From contig NZ_CP049989.1 of NCBI RefSeq assembly GCF_011388215.1, positions 1,922,001 to 1,986,000 of the forward strand: a DNA stretch of 64,000 nt, given 5' to 3'. Under the pieces are notes generated by a model. It saw only the letters and a program-made list of their open reading frames with translations, had not been told where the DNA came from and did no database searches. This stretch comes from Hydrogenophaga crocea (GTDB taxonomy: Bacteria; Pseudomonadota; Gammaproteobacteria; Burkholderiales; Burkholderiaceae_C). Made by a program: the position numbers and the translations under genes. Below, one piece after another: positions 6,617-38,478 of this stretch (its first letter is position 1; each line of letters starts with the position of its first letter).

Positions 6617-7479
6617 TCGGCGGGCTCCCCGAGCAACCAGCTTTTCACCAAGTCGTTGAACTCGGCGGGCTTTTGCTTCATGAGCCAGTGGCCGGCCTCG
6701 AGGCCGCGCGCCGCGCAGCCGGGCTGGCGGCCCAGGTGGCGCACCCAGGCGTCCGAATGAAACATGAAGGGCTTGCGCCGGCCGTAGATGAAGAGCCCGG
6801 GCAGGCTTTCGCCCATGAGCTTGCGCACCGGCGCCATGCCGTGCAGCCCGCCGTAGGCCTTGAACCAGCCCATGGCATAGGGGTAGTTCATTTCCCAGCC
6901 GATGAGCTGCGGGTCGTTGCGGCAGCCGATGGTGCGCGCCATCCAGCGCGTCATGCGGTTGGCCAGACCCGGCAGGTGGGGGCCGAGCTTCCAGGCCACC
7001 GCGAGCCAGAGCTGGTAGCCCGCGATCATGAGTTTCTCGCGCAGAGTCAGGCCGCCCAGGTAGTCGCGCGAGTTGTGGTCGCCGATGTCCACGCCCACCA
7101 CACGCGCCACACGCTCGCGGTGGCGCGCCGCGAACTCGTAACCGAAGGCACAGCCCCAGTCATGCAGCACCAGGGTCACGGGCTGCTCGGGACTCACCGC
7201 GTCGGCAATGCGGCGCATGAGGGTGCTGAGTTCGTCGAGCGAAGCGGGCCGCACGCCCTTGACCAGATCAAAGCCCGGCAGGTGAAAGCGCACGCAGCGA
7301 AAGTGCGGCGCGAGTTCGGCCACGGTGGCGTCCCACAACGCGGGCGTGTCGGGCCAGCCGTGCACCATGAGCAGGGTGTGCTCGCCGCGGCCGTCGATGA
7401 AGACGTCGACATCGTCGATCACCAGATCGGGCGCCACCCCGGGCACGGTGTCCGCCTCGGGCGGCGCGGACGCGGTCAC
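6595..7479 (-). CDS. Alpha/beta hydrolase, epoxide hydrolase / haloalkane dehalogenase type
   Basis: Alpha/beta-fold hydrolase of 294 aa. Oxyanion motif HGWPDT lies in the N-terminal part. The nucleophile elbow reads [11 protein letters not shown], with aspartate as nucleophile, as in epoxide hydrolases and haloalkane dehalogenases rather than serine esterases. The catalytic His is probably in [11 protein letters not shown] near the C-terminus. No signal peptide, so cytosolic. The GTG start overlaps the TGA of the upstream aminotransferase (GTGA), implying coupled translation. Substrate unknown. Confidence 0.82.
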
Positions 7480-8678
7480 AGCGCGCGCCCCAGCCGGGCA
7501 ATGCCCTCTTCGATCTTGTCGATCGGCGCGGTGGCGAAGCTCAGGCGCAGCGTGGCGTGTTCGGGCTGGGTGGCGTAGAACGGCGCGCCTGGCACGAAGG
7601 CCACGCCCTGCTCGATCGCCTTCTTCGCGAACACCGCGCCGTCGCTCACCTTGCCGCCCGCGCCGGTGAGCCGCGCCCACACGAACAGGCCGCCCTGCGG
7701 CTCGACGAATTCGATGGCGTCGCCGAGCTCGCGGCGCAGCGCCTGGCACATGGCCCGGGCACGCTCGGCGTACACCTGGCGCACGCGCGCCAGCGTGCCG
7801 GGCATGCGGCCGGCCTTGAGGTACTGCTCGGCCGTGGCCTGGGCGAAGGTGCTGGTGTGCGCGTCGCTGAACTGCTTGCACATGGTGGCCTTGGCCAGCA
7901 GCTCGGCCGGCGCCACCATCCAGCCCACACGCAGGCCGGGGCTGAGCACCTTGCTCAGCGAACCGCAGTGCACCAGGCGCTCGCGTGCGCCGGGCACGCT
8001 GTCGGCCAGGGCCAGCAGGCTGGGCGGCGGCGCGTCGCCGAAGTACAGGTCGCCGTAGGGGTCGTCTTCCACGATCAGGGTGTCGTGCTTCACGGCCATC
8101 TGCAGGATGGCCTGGCGCCGCGCCAGGCTGGTGAGCGCGCCACTGGGGTTGCCGAAGGTGGGAATGAGGTAGACGAACTTGGGCTTGTGCTCGGCGATCA
8201 GCGCCTCGAGCCGGTCGGTCTGCGCGCCCTCGCCGTCCACCGGCACGGTGATGAGCTCGGCGCCGTAGAGGCGGAAGCATTGGATCGTGGCGAGGAAGGT
8301 CGGGCCCTCGACGATGACCTTGTCGCCGGGGGAGATGAGCGTCTTGCCCAGCAGGTCCAGTGCCTGCTGGCTGCCGGTGGTCACGATCAGGTCGTTCGCG
8401 GCCACGCCGCGCGCGCCCTTGGACGCCATGAACTGCGCGAGCTGCTCGCGCAGCGGCGGGTGGCCTTCGGTGGCGCCGTACTGCAGCGTGGCGCCGGGGT
8501 TGTCGGTGAGCGCGGCGTTCACCGCCTCGCGAATGCCGTCCACGTCGAACATGTTGCTGTCGGGGAAGCCGCCCGCGAAGCTGATGATGCCGGGCTTGCC
8601 CAGCAGCTTGAAGAGCTCGCGGATGGCGGAGGTTTCGACGTTGTTCAGGCGGTCGGCGAAAGGCGTGGTGAAGGGCAT
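7476..8678 (-). CDS. PLP-dependent class I/II aminotransferase (LysN/MocR-domain-like)
   Basis: Fold-type I aminotransferase of 400 aa. Seen: the GSQQALDLL cofactor loop, IVEDDPYGDLYF (PLP Asp and Tyr), and the PLP lysine in CGSLSKVLSPGLRVGW. These are features of the 2-aminoadipate/branched-chain transaminase group, but specificity cannot be read from sequence. It is co-translated with the downstream hydrolase. About 100 bases separate it from the divergent nth. Confidence 0.85.
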   Translation of the reverse strand: MPFTTPFADRLNNVETSAIRELFKLLGKPGIISFAGGFPDSNMFDVDGIREAVNAALTDNPGATLQYGATEGHPPLREQLAQFMASKGARGVAANDLIVTTGSQQALDLLGKTLISPGDKVIVEGPTFLATIQCFRLYGAELITVPVDGEGAQTDRLEALIAEHKPKFVYLIPTFGNPSGALTSLARRQAILQMAVKHDTLIVEDDPYGDLYFGDAPPPSLLALADSVPGARERLVHCGSLSKVLSPGLRVGWMVAPAELLAKATMCKQFSDAHTSTFAQATAEQYLKAGRMPGTLARVRQVYAERARAMCQALRRELGDAIEFVEPQGGLFVWARLTGAGGKVSDGAVFAKKAIEQGVAFVPGAPFYATQPEHATLRLSFATAPIDKIEEGIARLGRAL

Positions 8679-29628: not shown

Positions 29629-29722
29629 TCCCTGGGCGTTCCCCGGGGGGAGAAGTGTTGTTTTCCCCTCTACAAACCCGCGAAACCCCGGGGCGTTCAC
29701 GCGCGTGAAGCGCGTTTCCTCC

Positions 29723-29751
29723 TTGGAAGGCGCAAACAACTCCATTAGCAT
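29723..29751 (+). promoter_or_regulatory. Candidate promoter of the histone-like gene
   Basis: TTGGAA (29723-29728) and TAGCAT (29746-29751) with a 17-base spacer, about 65 bases before the ATG; AGAAGGAT precedes the start codon. Confidence 0.5.
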
Positions 29752-29815
29752 CAACACGCTTGTGCGAGAGCGCGTTCTCCGCAGGCGTACATCAACTTCT
29801 AGAAGGATCATCAAC

Positions 29816-30277
29816 ATGGCAACTGCGAAGAAAGCCGCCGCGAAAAAAGCGCCGGCCAAGAAGGCGGCTCCGGCGAAGAAGGCCGCTGCCCCGGCGAAGA
29901 AAGCCGCTCCGGCCAAGAAGGCGGCCGCCCCCGCCAAGAAGGCCGCTCCGGCGAAGAAGGCCGCTCCGGCCAAGAAAGCCGCCCCGGCCAAGAAGGCCCC
30001 CGCGAAGAAGGCCGCTCCCGCCAAGAAGCGCACCCCGAACGCCGCCTTCCTCAAGCCCCTGACCCCCAGCGCCGCTCTGGCCGCGATCGTGGGCGCCAGC
30101 CCCCTGCCGCGCACCGAAGTGACCAAGAAGGTCTGGGACTACATCAAGAAGAACAAGCTGCAGGACAGCGTGAACAAGCGCCTCATCAACGCCGACGCCA
30201 AGCTGAAGGAAATCTTCAAGAAGGCCCAGGTCACGATGTTCGAACTGACCAAGCTGGTCAACGACCACCTCAAGTGA
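29816..30277 (+). CDS. Histone H1-like Lys/Ala-rich tail fused to a SWIB/MDM2 domain
   Basis: Protein of 153 aa in two parts. Residues 4-71 are repeats of the KKAAPAKK type, as in bacterial H1-like nucleoid proteins. Residues about 75-150 form a SWIB domain (NAAFLKPLTPSAALAAIVG, EVTKKVWDYIKKNKLQD, ADAKLKEIFKKAQVTMFEL). Such fusions are known in Burkholderiales; the function is thought to be DNA binding or compaction. Start ATG 29816 is supported by AGAAGGATCATCAAC before it; an open extension of 37 codons upstream covers the promoter. A strong terminator follows. Confidence 0.88.
   Translation: MATAKKAAAKKAPAKKAAPAKKAAAPAKKAAPAKKAAAPAKKAAPAKKAAPAKKAAPAKKAPAKKAAPAKKRTPNAAFLKPLTPSAALAAIVGASPLPRTEVTKKVWDYIKKNKLQDSVNKRLINADAKLKEIFKKAQVTMFELTKLVNDHLK
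29822..30028 (+). repeat. In-frame Lys-Ala-Pro codon repeat
   Basis: Degenerate tandem repeat of units like GCC-AAG-AAG-GCC-GCT-CCG encoding KKAAPAKKA. Copies differ at synonymous positions and in length, so copy-number change between strains is likely. Confidence 0.8.
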
Positions 30278-30313
30278 TCGTGCCCCGAACGCGCCGCGCG
30301 GCGCGTTCCCCCC

Positions 30314-30346
30314 GACAAAGCCGACGTTCCGTCGGCTTTGTCGTTT
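30314..30346 (+). terminator. Intrinsic terminator after the histone/SWIB gene
   Basis: A 12-base perfect stem (GACAAAGCCGAC / GTCGGCTTTGTC) with a 5-base loop, followed by GTTT. The U-run is short but the stem is strong. Confidence 0.7.
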
Positions 30347-30422
30347 CCGGACGCCCATCGGCCCCAGGGCATCGGTCGGTCGATCACCTATGCGAAACTG
30401 AGACGTTCTGTAACAAGCGCGC

Positions 30423-32243
30423 ATGAGCACCCCCTCCGCCCCACCGTCTCTCACCACCGCGCCCGCCGCCGGTGGCATGGCCCTGCCGCCCATGCGGCAC
30501 AAGACGGTGCTGGTGATCGACCTGGTGGAATCGGTGCGGCTCATGGCCACGCACGAGGCGCAGGTGGTGGCGCTGTGGCGCGGCTTCGTGCACTTCGCCA
30601 CCACCCAGGTGCTGCCCGAGCGCGGCGGCCGTCTCGTGAAGAGCCTGGGCGACGGCCTGCTGGCCGAGTTCGAGCACCCGGCGCAGGCGGTGCGCGCCGC
30701 GCTGGCGCTGCACCGCCACTTCGACGAGGCCAACCGGGACCTGCCCGCGGCACAGCAGCTCTACCTGCGCGCGGGCATCAACGCCACCCGGCTCTACGTG
30801 GACGACACCGACGTGTACGGCCACGGCGTGAACCTGGCCGCGCGCGTGGCCGACCTGGCCGCGCCCGGCGAGACCGTGGTGACGGCCAGCGTGTACGACG
30901 CCATCGTGGTGGGCGTGGACGCCGATGTGCAGGACCGTGGCGAGAGCTACCTCAAGCACTGGCCCGAACCGGTGCGCACCTGGGCCGTGTCGCCGGTGAA
31001 CGCGCACACGCCGGTGGTGCGCCTGCCCACGCCGGCCGAATCGGCGAGCGACTTCCGCCCCGGCGTGGCCGTGGTGCCCTTCGAGACGCGCAGCCATGCG
31101 GCCGAGCAGTTCGTGATCGGCGAGCTGATCGCCGACGGCGTGATCACCCAGCTCTCGCGCAGCCAGGACCTGCGCGTGATCTCGCGCCTGTCCACCAGCG
31201 CCTTCCGCGGCCGCGGCACGCCTGCGGCCGAGGTCGGCCAGCGGCTCGAAGCCTCGTACACGCTCAGCGGCAGTTACGTGACCTTTGGCGACAAGGTGGT
31301 GATCACCGCCGAACTCAGCGACAACCGCCGCAACGAGGTGGTGTGGGCCGAGCGGCTGGCGGGCGACACGCTCGACCTGGTGCAGCTCGAGAGCGAGCTC
31401 GTCACGCGCCTGAGCGAGGCCACGTCCAACGCGGTGCTGCACCACGTGGTGCAGCGGTCGCTGGTGCAGCCGCTGCCGCAGCTCGAGAGCAATGCGCTCA
31501 TGCTCGGCGGCATCACGCTGATGCACCGCTCGACACCGCGCGACCTGCAGCGCAGCCAGCAACTGCTCATGGCCGTGATCGAGCGGCACAAGCGCGTGGC
31601 GACGCCGTGCGCGTGGCTGGCCAAGTGGCACATCATGCAGGTGGTGCAGGGCCTGGCGCCCGAGCCCGCACAGGCCTTCCGCGAGGCCATCGACATGGCC
31701 GACCGGGCCCTGGACCTCGAGCCCAACAGCACGCTGGCGATGGCCATCAAGGGCCATGCGCTGTGCCACCTGGGCGACGACGTGGGCGCGTCGCGGCAAT
31801 TGCTGGAGCAGGCGACCACGATCAACCCCAACGACCCGATGGCCTGGCTCTACATGGGCTTCTGGAACACCATGTGGGGCGATCCCGCGCTGGCCGTCGA
31901 GGCCTGCGAACGCGCGCTGCGCCTGTCGCCGGTGGACCCGCAGACCTACTACTTCCAGATGCTCGCGGCGAACGGCTACCTGGTGGCCGACCAGCTCGAG
32001 CGGGTGGTGGCGCTGTGCGAGGCCTCGCTCAAGCACAACCGCTACCACCTGCCCACGCTGCGCGTGCTGATGACGGCGCAGCACGAACTGGGCCGTGCGT
32101 CAGAGGCGCGCGACACGTTCAACACCCTGCTGTCGTTGCAACCCGACCTGACCGTCGCGCGCTTCCTGGGCTATGGCTCGGCGAGCCGCTTGCGCCAACG
32201 CGGCGCCAACGCCTTGCGGGCCCTGGGCCTGCGCGAACACTGA
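30423..32243 (+). CDS. Class III adenylyl cyclase with TolB-like and TPR regions
   Basis: Soluble protein of 606 aa. Residues 25-185 are a class III cyclase domain with all key residues visible: metal Asp D33 (VIDLVESV) and D77 (KSLGDGLLAEF), base-contacting K73 and D130 (DVYG), and transition-state N137 and R141 (VNLAARV). This favours cAMP production. Residues about 213-350 resemble the TolB-like domain (VAVVPFETRS, LSGSYVTFGDKVVITAEL) found in such cyclases; 400-590 look like TPRs (ALDLEPNSTLAMAIKGHA, TTINPNDPMAWLYMGFW). No transmembrane segment or signal peptide. Fourteen bases before the PAP2 gene, so probably first in a three-gene operon. Confidence 0.85.
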   Translation: MSTPSAPPSLTTAPAAGGMALPPMRHKTVLVIDLVESVRLMATHEAQVVALWRGFVHFATTQVLPERGGRLVKSLGDGLLAEFEHPAQAVRAALALHRHFDEANRDLPAAQQLYLRAGINATRLYVDDTDVYGHGVNLAARVADLAAPGETVVTASVYDAIVVGVDADVQDRGESYLKHWPEPVRTWAVSPVNAHTPVVRLPTPAESASDFRPGVAVVPFETRSHAAEQFVIGELIADGVITQLSRSQDLRVISRLSTSAFRGRGTPAAEVGQRLEASYTLSGSYVTFGDKVVITAELSDNRRNEVVWAERLAGDTLDLVQLESELVTRLSEATSNAVLHHVVQRSLVQPLPQLESNALMLGGITLMHRSTPRDLQRSQQLLMAVIERHKRVATPCAWLAKWHIMQVVQGLAPEPAQAFREAIDMADRALDLEPNSTLAMAIKGHALCHLGDDVGASRQLLEQATTINPNDPMAWLYMGFWNTMWGDPALAVEACERALRLSPVDPQTYYFQMLAANGYLVADQLERVVALCEASLKHNRYHLPTLRVLMTAQHELGRASEARDTFNTLLSLQPDLTVARFLGYGSASRLRQRGANALRALGLREH

Positions 32244-32257
32244 CCAAGGAGGAAACC

Positions 32258-32347
32258 ATGAGTGGAATGTCTGGAATGAGCGGCATGTCGGGGATGTCCG
32301 GCATGTCGGGGATGAGCGGGATGTCGGGCATGTCCGGCATGAGCGGC
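32258..32347 (+). repeat. Ten tandem Met-Ser-Gly codon triplets
   Basis: Ten consecutive 9-base units each read ATG-Ser-Gly, with serine coded by AGT, TCT, AGC, TCG or TCC and glycine by GGA, GGC or GGG. The DNA units differ while the peptide is perfect, so the repeat appears kept at protein level. Each unit also supplies an in-frame ATG, but only the first has a ribosome site. Confidence 0.95.
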
Positions 32348-33358
32348 ATGGGCGCCGCCAATGCGCTGGCCTCGGCCGACGCGCTCACCCTCTCGCGCGC
32401 GGCCATCGTCGGCCCGTTCCAGGGGCCGGTGCTCCAGGTCAAGTGGCCCACCTTCAACGACAACGAGCAGAACCTCAAGCGCTGGGCGCCCGAGCCGCGG
32501 CTGTTCGCGATCGACTTCGAGGCCCGCGAAGGCGTCTCGCTCGAGACCGACAACCGCCGCCGAACCGCCACGCTGGTCTACAGCCACCGCGGCCGCAGCG
32601 ACACGCTGGTCACGCTCACCGGCCCCGACGAACGCCTGATCCAGCAGCAGCTGCAACTCGTCGCCGCCTATGCCGACCTGCGCCCCGATCGTTCGCTGGA
32701 AATCGTGGAGCAAATGGGCTATCCCGTGGCCTTCTGGTCGTCGGTGATCGGCCTCACCTCGCACCGCCACGCCAAGACGCTGCAGCTCATCGAGCTCGCC
32801 TACAACGTCGCCGCGCCCATCATCCAGCGCATCAAGGTGGCGTTCTCGATCACGCGGCCCGACGAGTTCTCGCCGCAGATCCAGGCCATGATCGCCACGC
32901 CCGGCCACGGCGCCTGGCCCAGCGGCCACGCCACCGAGGGCTTCCTGATCGCGGTGCTGTTGCAGAAGCTGCTCGACGCCGCCGCCCCGCCCCAGGGCAC
33001 GCAGCCGGGCAACGGCGAGGCCTGCCGCGAGCAGCTGCAGCGCCTGGCCGCGCGCATCGCGGTCAACCGCACCGTGGCCGGCGTGCACTACCCGATCGAC
33101 AGCGCCGCGGGCCGCCTGCTGGGCACCGCGCTGGCCGAGTTCATCGTGGCGCGCGCCACCGGCGGCAAGGTGCACGAGCGCGGCTTCCACTCGGCCCTGT
33201 TCCGCGAGGCCGACGGCGCGCCCAAGGACTTCAGCCTCGACGACCCCATGGACCTGCCCAGCGGCCAGCCCTACACCCGCGCCGCGCAAGGCAAGCGCGT
33301 GCCCGAAGGGCCGCTGCTCTCGTGGCTGTGGCAAGAGGCGCTCAAGGAGTGGCCGTGA
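32258..33358 (+). CDS. PAP2/vanadium-haloperoxidase-fold enzyme with (MSG)10 N-terminus
   Basis: Protein of 366 aa with the three-part PAP2/vanadate-binding signature: K193-x6-R200-P201 (KVAFSITRP), PSGH at 221-224 (WPSGHATEG), and R271-x5-H277-x3-D281 (NRTVAGVHYPID). Known members are acid phosphatases, lipid phosphatases or vanadium haloperoxidases; reaction here unknown. No membrane segments, unlike lipid phosphatases, so a soluble haloperoxidase-like or phosphatase role is favoured. Residues 1-30 are ten Met-Ser-Gly repeats. A strong AAGGAGGAAACC site sets the start. Its stop overlaps the protease start (GTGA). Confidence 0.82.
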   Translation: MSGMSGMSGMSGMSGMSGMSGMSGMSGMSGMGAANALASADALTLSRAAIVGPFQGPVLQVKWPTFNDNEQNLKRWAPEPRLFAIDFEAREGVSLETDNRRRTATLVYSHRGRSDTLVTLTGPDERLIQQQLQLVAAYADLRPDRSLEIVEQMGYPVAFWSSVIGLTSHRHAKTLQLIELAYNVAAPIIQRIKVAFSITRPDEFSPQIQAMIATPGHGAWPSGHATEGFLIAVLLQKLLDAAAPPQGTQPGNGEACREQLQRLAARIAVNRTVAGVHYPIDSAAGRLLGTALAEFIVARATGGKVHERGFHSALFREADGAPKDFSLDDPMDLPSGQPYTRAAQGKRVPEGPLLSWLWQEALKEWP

Positions 33359-35295
33359 GCTGGGCGCCGCTGCCGCGCGGCCGTTTCACCGGCATCGACT
33401 GGTCCGCGCCGGGCGCGATCGACGGCATGGACCCCTACCTTGCCTGGGCCGAGGCCGACGGCTTCGTGGGCTACCACCGGCCCGGCCACCATGACCAGCC
33501 CAAGTGGCTGCCGATCGTGATCGGCCTGCGCGAGGGCGCCGACGTGCGCGAGCTCGTCGACGCCTCGTCGAGCCGCTGGTTGCAGATTCCGCAGGCCTAC
33601 CTGCTGATCCCGGGCCTGCGCCACTGCACGGCGCGCGTTTCGCGGCGGTTCTTCGAGCACTGGCGCCAGGGCCACGTGGTGCGCTCGCTCATCGAGCGCT
33701 TCGAGCTCGGCCTGCCGGTGGACCAGCACACCGTCGCGCTCAAGGACTGCTGCCACCGCCACCAGCAGCCGCTGCCCCCGCCGCAGCGCGTGCCCGGCCC
33801 GGTGCTGGGCCTGATCGACGGCGGTCTGGCGGTGGCCAACGCGGCCTTCCGCGACGCCGCGGGCCGCACGCGCGTGAAGCATTTCTGGCGTCAGGACAAT
33901 CTGTACGGCGGCCCCTGGCCCGGCTCGCCCGATCACGAGCGCGTACCGCTCGATCCCACGCGCGCCGGCCCCACGCCGCCCGACCTGGGCTACGGCCACG
34001 CGCTCACCGGCCACGCGATCGACAGCGCGATCGCCAGCTTCACGCGCCGCGGCCAGCTCGACGAAGACGCGCTCTACCGCTACCTGCAGCTCTGGGACCT
34101 GGCGCGGCCGGTGAACCACGGCACGCACGTGTGCGGCCTGGCCACCGCGCCGGGCGGCCTGCTGGCCCCCGGCCTCAACGACTTCGCGAGCCGTTGCCCG
34201 GTGATCGCGGTGCAGCTCGACTGGGCCAACGTGCTCGACACCTCCGGCGGCGCGCTCAACGTCGGCGTGCTCGACGCGCTGCACTACATCGTCGCGCACG
34301 CCGCCGACGACGCCGAGATCGTGGTCAACGTGAGCTGGGGCACGCTGGCCGGCCCGCACGACGGCACCTCGCTGCTCGAAGCCGCCATGGACGAGCTCAT
34401 CGAGCGCCTGGACGGCCGGCTGCAGATCGCCCTGCCCGCGGGCAACGCCTACCAGAGCCGCACCCACGCCAACGCCACGCTGGCACCGCGCGAGGCGCTG
34501 GAACTGCACTGGCGCGTGCAGCCCGACGACCGCACGCAGAGCTTCCTCGAGATCTGGCTGCCGGCGAACGCGGCCGGGGTGGCCATCACGGTGCAGCCGC
34601 CCGAGCGGCCCGCGCAGGCCGTGACGCTGCGGCCGGGGGAATCGGGCATGTGGGTCGATGCGCGCGGCGTGCCGCAGTGGACCCTGATCTACCCGACCAC
34701 CACCGCGCTCGGCGCGCACGGCACCTGCGCGCTGCTCGCGCTCGAGCCCACGTTCAGCCGCGAGCCCGGGCGTGCGCTCGCGCCCTTCGGGGCCTGGCAG
34801 GTGCGGCTGCACAACCAGGGCCGCACGCCCGTGACCTTCGACGCCTACGTGGAGCGCGACGACGTGGTCCTGGGCACAAACACCGGCGCGCGCCAGTCCT
34901 ACCTGGAAGACCGGCGCTACGACACCCAGGGCAACCTGGGCGGCTGGATCGACCACGCGGACAACCCCACGCCGATCCGCCGCAGCGGCGTGTTCAACAG
35001 CCTGGCCACCGGGCAGCGCACGCTGAGCGCGGGCGGCACCCGGGCCACCGACAGCGGGCCCGAGCGCCTGTCGCGCTTTGCGCGCTATTCGCCGCAAAAG
35101 CCCAGCCCCGATCCGCAGCGGCCGCAACGCCCGGGCGTGAAGCCCGCGCCCGACACGCTGGCGCCGAGCGACAGCAACACCGCGCTCTGGGGCATGCGCA
35201 GCACGGGCAGCCTCAGCGGCAGCACAGTGCGGCTCGCGGGCACGAGCTCGTCGGCGCCCCAGGTGGCGAGGCGGCTGCTCAACGCGCTCGGTTGA
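33355..35295 (+). CDS. Cytosolic S8 (subtilisin-like) serine protease
   Basis: Subtilase-family protein of 646 aa. The catalytic triad is visible: D155 in GLIDGGL, H255 in NHGTHVCGLA, and S631 in AGTSSSAPQVA; oxyanion N364 is in LPAGNAYQS. The catalytic Ser lies very near the C-terminus, with about 260 residues inserted after the oxyanion Asn that include beta-rich stretches. About 150 residues precede the Asp, but there is no signal peptide or classic propeptide, so an intracellular role is likely. GTG start set by AAGGAG and by overlap with the PAP2 stop. Converges with the Crp-type gene, 24 bases away. Confidence 0.85.
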   Translation: MSWAPLPRGRFTGIDWSAPGAIDGMDPYLAWAEADGFVGYHRPGHHDQPKWLPIVIGLREGADVRELVDASSSRWLQIPQAYLLIPGLRHCTARVSRRFFEHWRQGHVVRSLIERFELGLPVDQHTVALKDCCHRHQQPLPPPQRVPGPVLGLIDGGLAVANAAFRDAAGRTRVKHFWRQDNLYGGPWPGSPDHERVPLDPTRAGPTPPDLGYGHALTGHAIDSAIASFTRRGQLDEDALYRYLQLWDLARPVNHGTHVCGLATAPGGLLAPGLNDFASRCPVIAVQLDWANVLDTSGGALNVGVLDALHYIVAHAADDAEIVVNVSWGTLAGPHDGTSLLEAAMDELIERLDGRLQIALPAGNAYQSRTHANATLAPREALELHWRVQPDDRTQSFLEIWLPANAAGVAITVQPPERPAQAVTLRPGESGMWVDARGVPQWTLIYPTTTALGAHGTCALLALEPTFSREPGRALAPFGAWQVRLHNQGRTPVTFDAYVERDDVVLGTNTGARQSYLEDRRYDTQGNLGGWIDHADNPTPIRRSGVFNSLATGQRTLSAGGTRATDSGPERLSRFARYSPQKPSPDPQRPQRPGVKPAPDTLAPSDSNTALWGMRSTGSLSGSTVRLAGTSSSAPQVARRLLNALG

Positions 35296-35319
35296 CGGTG
35301 GCAACCGCGCCGGCCGCGC

Positions 35320-35967
35320 CTACCAGCGCGCCGGCAGCGGACGCAGCAGCCAGATCCAGCGCTCGCGCACCGCGATGAAGCCGCCGGTTTCCAGGTCCTT
35401 GAGCAGGCGGCTCACCATCTCTCGCGAACAGGCCAGGTGCTGGGCGATCTGCTGGTGGGTGATGCGCTCGCGCAGCGGGCGTTCGCCGCGCTCGTTGGGC
35501 TCGCGCGCCCACTCGTTGAGCAGCTTCACCAGCCGGCCGTAGACGTCGATCAGCGCCACGCTGCGCGCGCTTTCGGTGGCCAGGCGCGCGCGGCGGATCA
35601 CGCGCGCCATGAGTTCGAGCGCGAATTCGGGGTGGTCGGCGATGTAGCCGAGCAGGGTCTGGCGGGTGATCACCGAGCAGGTGGTGGTGTCCACCGCCTC
35701 CACGTTGGCCGAGCGCGGCCCGCCGTCGAGCGACATCTCGCCCACGTACTCGAGCGGGCCGTACAGGCCCAGGGTCAGCTCACGCCCCGAGGCGTCGGCC
35801 ACGAAGGCCCGAAGTCGCCCCTTGAGCACGATGAACAGCGTGTCGCCGGTGTCGCCTTCCTGGATCAGCAGCGCGCCGCGGCGGTAGTGGCGGTGCACCC
35901 CCTGGGCCGCGAGCGCTTCGATGTGCTGGGTGTTGCGGGAATCGATCGGAGCGCTGCCTGGGGACAT
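35320..35967 (-). CDS. Crp/Fnr-family transcriptional regulator
   Basis: Protein of 215 aa: cyclic-nucleotide-type beta-roll (residues 20-115) and C-terminal winged helix (THQQIAQHLACSREMVSRLL near 170-190). The phosphate-binding cassette reads GEMSLDGGPRSA (E77, R85), retaining the Glu and Arg that bind cyclic nucleotide in CRP; the spacing is slightly shorter. No Fnr-type N-terminal cysteine cluster, so cyclic nucleotide rather than Fe-S is the more likely ligand. It follows the PAS/LuxR-type gene by nine bases, probably as an operon. Confidence 0.88.
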   Translation of the reverse strand: MSPGSAPIDSRNTQHIEALAAQGVHRHYRRGALLIQEGDTGDTLFIVLKGRLRAFVADASGRELTLGLYGPLEYVGEMSLDGGPRSANVEAVDTTTCSVITRQTLLGYIADHPEFALELMARVIRRARLATESARSVALIDVYGRLVKLLNEWAREPNERGERPLRERITHQQIAQHLACSREMVSRLLKDLETGGFIAVRERWIWLLRPLPARW

Positions 35968-35976
35968 CCGGGAGGG

Positions 35977-36663
35977 TCAGGGGTGGCTGTAACCGGCCGG
36001 ATTGTGCGTGACCGGCGTGACGATGCGCAAGGCAGGCACCACGGGCGGCAGGCTGTTGATGCGCTGCAGCAGCCGGCGGATGCTGGACGCACCGGCCTTC
36101 TCGCGCAGGGTCTTGATCTGGCTGCGCACGGTGGACACGGCCACGCCGTTCTCGGCCGCGATCTCGTTGATGTCCAGGCCGCGGCACAGCGCGAGCAGCA
36201 CGACCTCTTCGGTCGGGCTCAGCGCCAGGGCCCGCGCGAACATGCGCACCGCGAGGTTGTCGCACACGTTCTGGCGCGACATCACCACCAGCACCGTGGG
36301 CGCGTCGTCCTCGAGCGGGTGCGACAGCGGCGTGAAGGCCAGCGACAGATCGCGCTCCTGTTCGCGCATCAACACCAGGCGGCGCTGGCCGCGCAGCGCG
36401 GCGTCGAGCGCCTGCTGGATGCGCTCGCTGTGCTCGGGCGTGGTCCCCAGGAGGCTGCCGCTGCACGCACGCAGCAGGCGGCGCTGGGCGAGCTCGTGGC
36501 GGGCCAGGTGGTTGGCATGCAGGATGCGGCCCTGCGCGTCGAGCAGCAGCATGCCGTAGTCGATCTCGTCGAACACGCGCAGCAGATGGGCCTCGCTGAG
36601 CGTTCTCGTCTCGGCGGGAAAGCCGGTGTGCGTCGTGCGGATCTTGTCAGTTGCTTGCCACAT
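35977..36663 (-). CDS. PAS-like / LuxR-type HTH regulator
   Basis: Protein of 228 aa. Residues 27-130 resemble a PAS sensor (VFDEIDYGMLLLDAQGRILH), and residues 145-205 a LuxR/GerE-type HTH (ALSPTEEVVLLALCRGLDI, AVSTVRSQIKTLREKAGA). No receiver domain with phospho-Asp is apparent. A strong AGGAGG site precedes the ATG. Ligand unknown. It is transcribed with the Crp-type gene downstream. Confidence 0.83.
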   Translation of the reverse strand: MWQATDKIRTTHTGFPAETRTLSEAHLLRVFDEIDYGMLLLDAQGRILHANHLARHELAQRRLLRACSGSLLGTTPEHSERIQQALDAALRGQRRLVLMREQERDLSLAFTPLSHPLEDDAPTVLVVMSRQNVCDNLAVRMFARALALSPTEEVVLLALCRGLDINEIAAENGVAVSTVRSQIKTLREKAGASSIRRLLQRINSLPPVVPALRIVTPVTHNPAGYSHP

Positions 36664-36780
36664 GGGGAACCTCCTGTTGGCAGGCAGTGTTCCACCGGAT
36701 GGGGAAAGTCCGCTGTGTGCTGATGACCGGCGTTTTGTGATCCATTCACCAAACGCCGGCGGGCGCCGCGCGCCGGGCGT

Positions 36781-38478
36781 TCAGCGCTGCAGCGCGGCGG
36801 CGCGGATGGCGCTGAGCGTGCCGCGCGTGGTGATCACCTCGGCGTCCAGCGGCACCACGATCACCGTGCCGCCCGGGTGCGCGAGCGCGCGCTGCAGCGC
36901 GGGCTCGAAAGCCGCGGTGGTGTCCACGCGCTCGGCCGCGTAGCCGTAGGCACGCGCGAGCGCCACGAAATCGGGGTTGGCCAACGCCGAGCCGCTCACG
37001 CGCGCCGGGTACTCGCGCTCCTGGTGCATGCGGATGGTGCCGTAGCTGCCGTTGTCGAGCAGCAGCACGATGCTCCGGGCGCCGTGCTGCACCGCCGTGG
37101 CGAGTTCCTGCCCGTTCATGAGGAAGTCGCCGTCGCCTGCGATGGTGAAGGCCAGCCGCCCGGTGGCGATGGCCGCGCCGATGCCCGCGGGCACGCCGTA
37201 GCCCATGGCGCCATTGGTGGGCGCGAGCTGGGTCTTGTGGCCGCGCGCCAGGCCCGGGTAGCGGTAGAAGCGGTGCAGCCAGCTCGCGAAGTTGCCCGCG
37301 CCGTTGGTGAGCACCGCGTCTTCGGGCAGCAGACGCTGCAGCGTGTGCACGATGGCGGGCATGTCGATCGGCCCGGGCAGCGCCACGCCGCCGTTGGCCG
37401 GATCGATGTTGGCCAGGTAGTCGGCATGGCAGCCCGAGGTCCATTCGCCCCAGGGCAGCGCGGGCGGCGCGGTGAGCACCTCGAGGCTGCGCGCGGCCGC
37501 GTTCATGCTGGCCTGGATGGCCAGCGCGGGCTGGTACACGCGGCCGAGTTCTTCGGCGCTGCTGTGGATGTGCACCAGCTTCTGCCGGGGCAGCGGCGCT
37601 TCGATCAGCGTGTAGCCGCCGGTGGTGCTCTCGCCCAGGCGCGGGCCGATGGCGATCAGCAGGTCGCTCTCGCGCACGCGGCGCGCCAGCGCGGGGTTGA
37701 TGCCCAGGCCCACGTCGCCCGCGTACTGCGGATGGTGGTTGTCGAAGGTGTCCTGGAAGCGGAAGGCGTTGGCCACCGGCAGCTGCCAGTTCTCGGCGAA
37801 GCGCTGCAGCGCGGCGGCGCTCTGCGGCGTCCAGCCGCCGCCGCCCGCGATCACCAGGGGCCGCTCGGCCGCCAGCAGCAGCGTGCGCAGCGTGCGCAGC
37901 GCGCCCGGGTCGCTCCAGGCCTGCACCGGCTCCACGCGCGGCAGCGGCGCGGCCTCGACCGTGTGGGTGAGCATGTCTTCGGGCAGCACCAGCACCACCG
38001 GGCCAGGTCGGCCGTTCATGGCGGTGGCAAAGGCGCGCGCCACGTACTCGGGGATGCGGCGCGCGTCGTCGATGCGCTCCACCCGCTTGGCGAAGCCCTT
38101 GGTGGACGGGCCGAAGAAGGCCGCGAAATCCACCTCCTGGAAGGCCTCGCGGTCGCGCGCGTCGCTGGCCACGTCGCCCACGAACAGCACCAGGGGCGTG
38201 CTGTCCTGGAAGGCGGTGTGCACCCCGATGGACGCGTTGGTGGCGCCAGGCCCGCGCGTCACGAAGCACACGCCCGGGCGGCCGCTGAGCTTGCCCTGGG
38301 CCTCGGCCATGAAGGCCGCGCCGCCTTCCTGGCGGCAGGTCACGAAGCGGATGCGGTCGCGGTGGGCGTGAAAGCCGTCGAGCACCGCCAGGTAGCTTTC
38401 GCCCGGCACGCCGAAGGCGTGCGTCACGCCCTGTTCGATCAGACATTGGACGAGCAGATGGCCGGCAATCTGGGACAT
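36781..38478 (-). CDS. ThDP-dependent enzyme of the acetolactate synthase-like family
   Basis: Thiamine diphosphate enzyme of 565 aa with three domains. N-terminal PYR domain has the activating glutamate in TCRQEGGAAFMAEAQGK. The C-terminal PP domain has the Mg/ThDP motif IAGDGDFLMNGQEL and, about 25 residues later, the Asn in LLDNGSYG. It resembles uncharacterised acetolactate-synthase-like proteins rather than IlvB; no regulatory small subunit is nearby. Substrate unknown. It is 52 bases downstream of the MFS gene in the same direction, suggesting a transport/metabolism pair. Confidence 0.82.
   Translation of the reverse strand: MSQIAGHLLVQCLIEQGVTHAFGVPGESYLAVLDGFHAHRDRIRFVTCRQEGGAAFMAEAQGKLSGRPGVCFVTRGPGATNASIGVHTAFQDSTPLVLFVGDVASDARDREAFQEVDFAAFFGPSTKGFAKRVERIDDARRIPEYVARAFATAMNGRPGPVVLVLPEDMLTHTVEAAPLPRVEPVQAWSDPGALRTLRTLLLAAERPLVIAGGGGWTPQSAAALQRFAENWQLPVANAFRFQDTFDNHHPQYAGDVGLGINPALARRVRESDLLIAIGPRLGESTTGGYTLIEAPLPRQKLVHIHSSAEELGRVYQPALAIQASMNAAARSLEVLTAPPALPWGEWTSGCHADYLANIDPANGGVALPGPIDMPAIVHTLQRLLPEDAVLTNGAGNFASWLHRFYRYPGLARGHKTQLAPTNGAMGYGVPAGIGAAIATGRLAFTIAGDGDFLMNGQELATAVQHGARSIVLLLDNGSYGTIRMHQEREYPARVSGSALANPDFVALARAYGYAAERVDTTAAFEPALQRALAHPGGTVIVVPLDAEVITTRGTLSAIRAAALQR

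Follow-up and report, generated by a model that had tools for sequence, protein, structure and literature searches.

A 64,000-nucleotide stretch of the Hydrogenophaga crocea genome (RefSeq assembly GCF_011388215.1, contig NZ_CP049989.1, positions 1,922,001 to 1,986,000 of the forward strand; hereafter the window) carries three adjoining genes, which encode an adenylyl cyclase with TolB-like and TPR parts (gene 1), a PAP2-fold enzyme (gene 2) and an S8 subtilase (gene 3). Here, we report that the PAP2 protein opens with an exact tandem peptide array, that the repeat unit of this array changes from relative to relative and that the unit co-varies with the C-terminal TPR end of gene 1. The array and its co-variation were absent from the initial annotation of this DNA and are the main feature missed there. 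We put at even the chance that the genes work as a signalling module complete in itself, in which a peptide-repeat ligand is matched to a TPR receptor. The features concerned (window coordinates, all on the plus strand) are as follows.

30423..32243, plus: gene 1, class III adenylyl cyclase with TolB-like domain and TPRs, 606 amino acids (aa) (open reading frame [ORF], Pfam)
30492..30995, plus: cyclase domain of gene 1, residues ~24-191 (key residues invariant in 33 aligned sequences)
31833..32222, plus: hypervariable C-terminal TPR segment of gene 1, residues 471-600, co-varying with the PAP2 unit
32246..32252, plus: Shine-Dalgarno sequence AAGGAGG ahead of the array ATG (sequence and survey in relatives)
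32258..33358, plus: gene 2, PAP2-fold enzyme with N-terminal array, 366 aa (Pfam, alignment, AlphaFold2 [AF2], Foldseek)
32258..32350, plus: tandem peptide array (MSG)x10+M with scrambled codons (sequence)
33355..35295, plus: gene 3, S8 subtilase, 646 aa, D155/H255/S631 (Pfam, alignment)

Relatives were collected by similarity to the PAP2 protein, giving 110 loci (the window, 6 plasmids, 80 genome contigs and 23 other genome stretches), the majority from Comamonadaceae, with gene starts and ORFs called mechanically. A motif scan across a collection of species genomes yielded 417 confirmed stretches, and the 80 best of these were retained. One contig entered twice (L120 and L161) and L101 and L102 are near-identical, leaving 108 distinct PAP2 rows. 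Alignments covered gene 1 in 101 loci, S8 in 102, PAP2 in 105 and all three in 91. A gene 1 homologue was recognised in 105/110 loci (unrecognised in L054, L079, L087, L093 and L174; only partly recognised in L158, L165 and L171), and an S8 homologue in 106/110, every one within 1.5 kb of the PAP2 gene. Because the canonical order and direction, gene 1-PAP2-S8, recurs in 97/110 loci, the trio is not a chance arrangement; it is a real, conserved operon-like module. The initial annotation, which had placed the three ORFs exactly where we find them and had named rare adjacency in relatives as an observation that would speak against it, is borne out on both points. Genes 1 and 2 are separated by 14 bases, and the GTG start of gene 3 overlaps the TGA of gene 2 by four bases (GTGA). 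The PAP2 protein is carried by 44 of 59 same-genus genomes (leaving out a spurious match in G040, a 40-aa ORF that has a repeat and is not a PAP2), and of 398 genomes sampled evenly across the phylum 22 matched at E ≤ 1e-15. By its best database protein matches, the H. crocea genome is close to Hydrogenophaga sp. T2.

Residues 1-31 of the PAP2 protein read (MSG)x10+M in the window, and exact arrays, counting three units or more, occur in 105/110 loci, with 54 distinct units among them, including SGGV, SGGY, GGF, GGA, GGH, NSF, SAL, LTG, TGV, NAE, GNQ, RAG and ARD. The unit is three residues long in 68 of these arrays, four in 36 and two in one, and arrays of both three- and four-residue units span ~30 aa (medians 30 and 29). 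The five loci lacking an exact array (L087, at a contig end, L096, L100, L101 and L102) have imperfect or truncated Gly-rich repeats; N-masking covers part of the array in L085 and L088, and the WVA reading of L088 is doubtful. Under a strict rule (4 copies, 12 aa), an array was found in 102/110 PAP2 proteins versus 7/1207 other mechanically called ORFs of these loci. The Shine-Dalgarno match is generally longer for the best start before the array than for the best start after it. By the repeat rule, no array is visible in 110 of the 120 top-ranking PAP2 homologues in the database, and many of them start after or within it; database protein models frequently cut the array off, which may explain why it has been overlooked. 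No published account of the array or its pairing was found among the titles and opening parts of abstracts listed by searches of Creative Commons-licensed PubMed Central text on the trio, the repeat, conflict systems and TPR pheromones. A 100% match to the MSG repeat (G062) was set aside, since it lies in a copper oxidase-like protein (by eye) and is unrelated. At L127:2036-3844 (minus strand), some ten MSG repeats likewise occur in a protein that has no relation to PAP2 and resembles a copper oxidase (by eye).

Low-complexity repeats of this kind could make the PAP2 protein condense or form silk-like or amyloid-like fibres, with the TPR protein as a client. Units made mostly of Gly, Ser or Ala plus one other residue, an array predicted to be disordered and the constant array length would all suit such a tag. 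We nevertheless consider it quite improbable: the units are variously basic (RAG), mixed-charge (ARD), acidic (NAE), polar (GNQ, TQQ) and aromatic, with no common sticker chemistry, and the co-variation with the TPR end would be left unexplained. Bacterial amyloid signalling motifs, moreover, need the same motif in a partner, whereas no amyloid-type partner motif was seen here and a DNA pattern search of the H. crocea genome with this one unit found no second MSG-repeat stretch beyond the PAP2 gene.

The peptide is held while its DNA is not. The ten units of the window array are written in seven different unit DNAs. A codon test on 90 loci gave 82 arrays (one of them, L088, an N-run), 6 loci with no repeat (L079, L093 [for the start chosen], L096, L100, L101 and L102) and 2 with no start (L085 and L087). 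Codon identity between units averaged 0.43, the codon usage of the genes themselves predicting 0.45, and it was below expectation in 56/82 arrays. In 71 scrambled arrays, codon sharing between adjacent units is rarer than in shuffles (522 versus 642.9, standard deviation [SD] 17.8, z −6.8), and in 21 homogeneous arrays it is commoner (358 versus 321.1, SD 6.0). Perfect units numbered 916, and adjoining units one residue off numbered 33. Because codons diverge while units stay exact, selection acts on the peptide; the arrays look to have been born by amplification, their DNA then diverging with the peptide maintained. Slippage alone as the cause of the repeats is ruled out for most arrays by the scrambled codons and is supported for the homogeneous ones.

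The unit itself turns over rapidly. At least 71 unit changes were counted on a PAP2-core tree with 105 labelled tips, a quick tree in which 34 of 105 inner branches are unresolved and some branches are long. Close PAP2 cores bear GGV, GGY, GGF or GGI (L079, L086, L091 and L093), and the three genomes in the draw from the phylum that gave two matches have different repeats in each (GGF/NAE, NSF/GL-rich and TAM/GNQ). Of 21 Phaeobacter plasmid records found, six (L177-L181 and L038) were compared: all have the unit NSF and differ only in copy number, 5-7. The fast change may come from a need for orthogonality between neighbours or paralogues, or from escape from an inhibitor. Putative conflict sensors diversified by diversity-generating retroelements (PMC10907252) are likewise reported to vary rapidly; the variation here looks like array rebirth plus cassette exchange.

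Co-variation between the unit and the rest of the module was measured in 393 pairs of loci with a PAP2-core identity of 0.60-0.995 (41 same-unit and 352 different-unit pairs). Identity residuals on the PAP2 core, same-unit versus different-unit, were +0.144 versus −0.017 for the TPR part, +0.058 versus −0.007 for TolB and +0.007 versus −0.001 for the cyclase; S8, at −0.010 versus +0.001, was rejected as a partner that follows the unit. With each locus used once per set (PAP2-core identity 0.80-0.985), TPR identity relative to the other parts had a median of +0.040 in 17 same-unit pairs and −0.125 in 14 different-unit pairs (p 1.2e-5). The signal peaks at the very end of gene 1: over residues 561-600, identity is 0.88 between loci with the same unit and 0.49 between loci with different units. 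S8 has no identity trough in different-unit pairs, and PAP2 has a small one only at its start (over the first 40 core residues, 0.75 in different-unit versus 0.85 in same-unit pairs). L063 and L071 (SAGV and SGGY) illustrate the pattern, with identities of 0.95 for the PAP2 core, 0.93 for S8, 0.90 for the cyclase, 0.91 for TolB and 0.65 for the TPR part.

Nearest-neighbour comparisons point the same way. By gene 1 residues 471-600 (TPRc), 49 of 91 loci have a nearest neighbour with their own unit, and 65 of the 91 have a same-unit partner at all; the corresponding figures are 33 for the PAP2 core, 31 for TolB, 26 for S8 and 23 for the cyclase. TPRc was right and TolB wrong on the unit in 18 loci, the reverse in none, and no different-unit pair reached a TPRc identity of 0.80 or more. 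When unit labels were permuted within groups, 0/5000 permutations reached the observed contrast of 0.152 (SD of permutations, 0.014; cyclase control, −0.021). Among 260 different-unit pairs (TolB ≥0.7, equal unit length; not independent), unit similarity correlated with TPRc identity (rho 0.41) and not with TolB (0.02). In winged-helix loci, the only two same-unit pairs have the top TPRc identities (0.96 and 0.84), yet these are also the closest relatives.

Inheritance across the junction of genes 1 and 2 is mosaic. Third-position identity in different-unit pairs holds at ~0.62 for the first two-thirds of gene 1, falls to 0.33 at residues 561-600 and recovers to 0.64 by PAP2-core residues 31-60. 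L103 and L075, with TolB 0.99 identical, have the units GGF and GGI and a TPRc identity of 0.67, and the TPRc of L103 is nearest to that of L091, another GGF locus. From these alignments, one tract, running from the TPR end through the array to just inside the PAP2 core, looks to have been replaced as a whole from distant donors. Such a cassette could be neutral: the array would be a recombination hot spot, linkage alone would couple TPR end and unit, the array would be a flexible or self-associating tag and the TPRs would bind something else. The third-position dip and its recovery fit this, as does a TPRc that follows the unit rather than the gene's own relatives. The replaced tract is lopsided, however (~375 bases upstream versus 90 downstream), gene 1 homologues accompany the array in nearly every locus even where gene 1 is divergent (L158 and L165), and unit chemistry tracks TPRc identity, although stepwise mutation within a cassette lineage could also yield that last result. 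On balance we think the neutral cassette unlikely, while counting it the foremost rival.

Several observations weigh against a specific TPR-array match. The TPR end physically adjoins the array, so co-transfer could link both without binding, and divergence climbs steadily toward the array and is not confined to particular helices (the pair lists being partly hand-picked). TolB is also slightly coupled to the unit, and the permuted mean was 0.066, not zero. Not all pairs are independent; the 17- and 14-pair sets have some loci in common, and Comamonadaceae supply most of the loci. Two unlike TPR ends accompany the unit SGGY (TPRc 0.48-0.49 in 4 pairs with TolB ≥0.6). S8 does not co-vary with the unit, leaving unit-specific cleavage unsupported, and no export route turned up, though no search aimed at export was made.

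For a matched ligand and receptor, we propose the following working mechanism. The disordered PAP2 N terminus would display about ten identical short units, to which the C-terminal TPR superhelix of gene 1, a putative receptor, would bind; a groove built of repeats would read a peptide built of repeats, which would demand identical units. Occupancy of the array would then set the output of gene 1, either cyclic AMP (cAMP), as in this genome, where a Crp-type neighbour could read it, or direct DNA binding in the winged-helix lineages. The partner protease (S8, elsewhere Peptidase_A4) would most likely cut the array or the enzyme, resetting or releasing the signal. TPR end and array would move as one recombining cassette, creating species-specific alleles as in quorum-sensing pherotypes. 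Recognition by a second periodic structure would most simply account for an array that is exactly periodic and has no conserved chemistry, and the co-varying part of gene 1 is a TPR solenoid. The full version, a natural peptide-barcode language in which a TPR superhelix reads a periodic peptide, pairs are exchanged between species as cassettes, dozens of alleles are orthogonal and the output is cAMP or transcription, seems to us slightly short of an even bet; the direction of control and any role between cells are likewise inferred. If TPR and array do bind specifically, nature would hold dozens of ready-made repeat-peptide/reader pairs, a new recognition mode in Gram-negative signalling that would be useful for tags and sensors, and it would be explained why a homogeneous repeat is kept exact while its sequence keeps changing.

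Parts of this mechanism have known counterparts. Designed repeat proteins bind tandem tripeptides by one-to-one superhelical matching (PMC10115654); the module would likewise have a repeating groove that reads identical tripeptides, here as a natural and putative interaction. In the pherotype loci ComQXPA, agr and comC/comD (compare PMC4408185 and PMC5629823), a hypervariable ligand and the sensor part of its receptor are linked and flanked by conserved parts, and they define specificity groups. Linked exchange and co-variation are seen for TPR end and array; they would be a similar trait if the receptor and ligand roles were as we suppose. Pherotype receptors are membrane kinases with a secreted, processed peptide; in the trio, Pfam found no kinase domain, the regulator joins TPRs to a cyclase or winged helix, and an enzyme carries the array as part of its own chain. 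The RRNPP receptors (Rap, PlcR and ComR) also combine TPRs and an output domain with a short peptide ligand; here the output is a cyclase or an OmpR-type winged helix joined to a TolB-like domain, the candidate ligand is part of an enzyme and no HTH_3, the Xre-type helix-turn-helix of that family, is among the families reported for 26 scanned gene 1 proteins.

Gene 1 matches Guanylate_cyc and TPRs in Pfam, and its AF2 model (m29810a00a526; pLDDT, 83.7; pTM, 0.46, so that the domain arrangement is unsure) reads as a cyclase, a TolB-like domain and a TPR solenoid. Foldseek with this model placed adenylyl cyclases on top and a consensus TPR at rank 42, and the NCBIfam HilA/EilA model matched residues 270-504, far under its cut-off. 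The class III adenylyl cyclase signature is present, with D33 and D77, K73 and D130, N137 and R141, which we take to be the metal pair, the adenine pair, the Asn and the Arg, respectively; all six residues are invariant in 33/33 chosen cyclase-type rows. Across a wider set of 101 gene 1 proteins, the full six occur in 78, five of them in 3 and fewer in the other 20. Families matched in the 26 scanned proteins include Guanylate_cyc in 17, an OmpR-type winged helix (Trans_reg_C) in 6 and TPR_2 in 22, and a few proteins match neither output (L039 none; L164 a weak Trans_reg_C, 0.014). By these domain assignments the module is more than a cyclase system, since a winged helix replaces the cyclase in some lineages, and the initial annotation's cyclase as maker of a nucleotide signal could apply to the cyclase-type loci and not to the 6/26 with a winged helix. 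CadC/HilA-like and cyclase-TolB-TPR regulators have the same domain order, output-TolB-TPR; we know of no array-bearing partner for either.

The neighbours of gene 1 bear on its output. Two minus-strand genes follow the trio in the window, the Crp-type one being convergent, and genes of the Crp and LuxR types recur beside the module throughout much of the Comamonadaceae set as conserved neighbours:

35320..35967, minus: Crp-type regulator, cNMP_binding plus HTH_Crp (Pfam, profile)
35977..36663, minus: LuxR-type regulator, weak GerE match, 1.5e-4 (neighbour conserved in Comamonadaceae)

In loci longer than 10 kb, a Crp/cNMP-profile gene lies near 68/78 cyclase-type, 0/19 non-cyclase and 0/3 degenerate-cyclase loci, figures to be read with the caution that the 68 are mostly one synteny in Comamonadaceae and that 12 of the 19 non-cyclase loci span only 10.5-13 kb, versus ~21 kb for many cyclase-type loci. 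Such a gene is also found in five loci whose gene 1 is broken or missing. Outside the main synteny the partner is again Crp-type in Roseibium and Tardiphaga (Pfam) and Microvirga (profile), a LuxR helix-turn-helix fused to a cNMP-binding domain in Paraburkholderia and Caballeronia and, a few kb away, a Na/H exchanger with a cNMP-binding domain in Rhizobium. Because cNMP-domain genes accompany cyclase-type loci only, we take cAMP as the working output here, presumably read by the Crp-type neighbour. The LuxR/cNMP fusions, upstream of gene 1 at L034:3353-4468 and L035:3203-4510, resemble the LuxR and Crp neighbours of the window fused together. In Curvibacter (Comamonadaceae), a cNMP-binding and EAL fusion upstream of gene 1 (L110:6638-7864) hints at coupling of cAMP to cyclic di-GMP.

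The initial annotation had suggested a stress or defence circuit with the PAP2 enzyme and the protease as effectors. A locally read cyclic-nucleotide signal is plausible from the neighbours above; an anti-phage or stress role is, in our estimate, very improbable. In PADLOC the cyclase resembles PycC models (best, 1.2e-8), and the cNMP domain of the Crp gene (residues 12-128) matches Pycsar TIR-effector models (3.7e-11). These matches are single-domain, however, the rest of the Crp-type protein being a Crp helix-turn-helix, and the other 6 of 7 scanned neighbours had no defence match. Pycsar shares the cyclase fold and a cNMP-binding partner with the module, but the partner here is a Crp-type transcription factor, and PycC with a TIR or transmembrane effector was not found among the seven neighbours. 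The presence of the PAP2 gene in most same-genus genomes also argues against defence. A viral origin was rejected: 24 stretches matched a pattern, and no viral contig was confirmed to encode a relative.

Gene 3 matches Peptidase_S8 barely above the cut-off (22.6 versus 21.8 bits); D155, H255 and S631, with N364, are invariant in 26/26 aligned relatives, giving the S8 triad and oxyanion Asn. The S8 gene of the trio is nearly always there but replaceable. A Peptidase_A4 gene follows PAP2 in L172 (3999-5051) and L175 (5783-6853), and in L173 an S8 gene of a different kind lies upstream. In L176 (5741-8692), the last of the four loci without the trio S8, a convergent gene next to a cyclase-like gene and PAP2 encodes a 983-aa protein with an HEFGH motif and no Pfam match, perhaps a metalloprotease. 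The slot thus seems, from gene content, to stay constant while the protease family changes.

With a protease beside it, the array might be a precursor that is cut into short signalling or modified peptides (a polyprotein pheromone, or one resembling ribosomally synthesised and post-translationally modified peptides) and sensed by TPRs as in RRNPP systems. The many identical copies, the adjacent protease gene and the TPR receptor would suit this, as would a tryptophan halogenase gene (PF04820) that separates gene 1 from PAP2 in three loci of two lineages. Each of these loci has a Trp-rich, GGW-type array:

L096:8272-9753: tryptophan halogenase (Pfam)
L102:8317-9822: tryptophan halogenase (Pfam)
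L101:1518-3023: tryptophan halogenase (near-identical to L102)

The halogenase occurs in 3/7 Trp-array loci versus 0/103 others (p 1.6e-4, counting N-masked L088 as non-Trp), or in 2/6 Trp-array loci with twin loci merged (p 0.0025), and the pairing is side evidence that the array matters. Precursor processing still strikes us as improbable: the array forms part of an enzyme, S8 identity does not follow the unit, no signal peptide was noticed by eye and the halogenase is absent from the DNA examined at all other loci, including four Trp-array loci (L097, L104, L111 and L129). Among the 120 S8 homologues listed, none had a tandem repeat of at least 12 aa. In L102, a transposase-like ORF (by eye; 7201-8268, minus strand) is inserted between gene 1 and the halogenase gene.

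Gene 2 has the signature of the PAP2/vanadium haloperoxidase superfamily (presumably K-x6-RP, PSGH and R-x5-H-x3-D) and its fold. K193, R200, PSGH at 221-224, R271, H277 and D281 are invariant in 37/37 aligned relatives, so that, with the cyclase and S8 residues given above, the complete catalytic motifs described initially were found in all three proteins. The AF2 model has a pLDDT of 86.6, with residues 1-38 below 50. Foldseek gave a bacterial acid phosphatase (7f17) as the best match and haloperoxidases lower, and by this model either phosphatase or haloperoxidase activity may be expected. The trio proteins look soluble, judged by eye and from the AF2 models. A sigma-70 promoter scan of 30100-36800 returned zero matches and was uninformative. 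The upstream neighbour (window 29705-30277) has Lys/Ala/Pro repeats of the AAPAKK type, as do its relatives.

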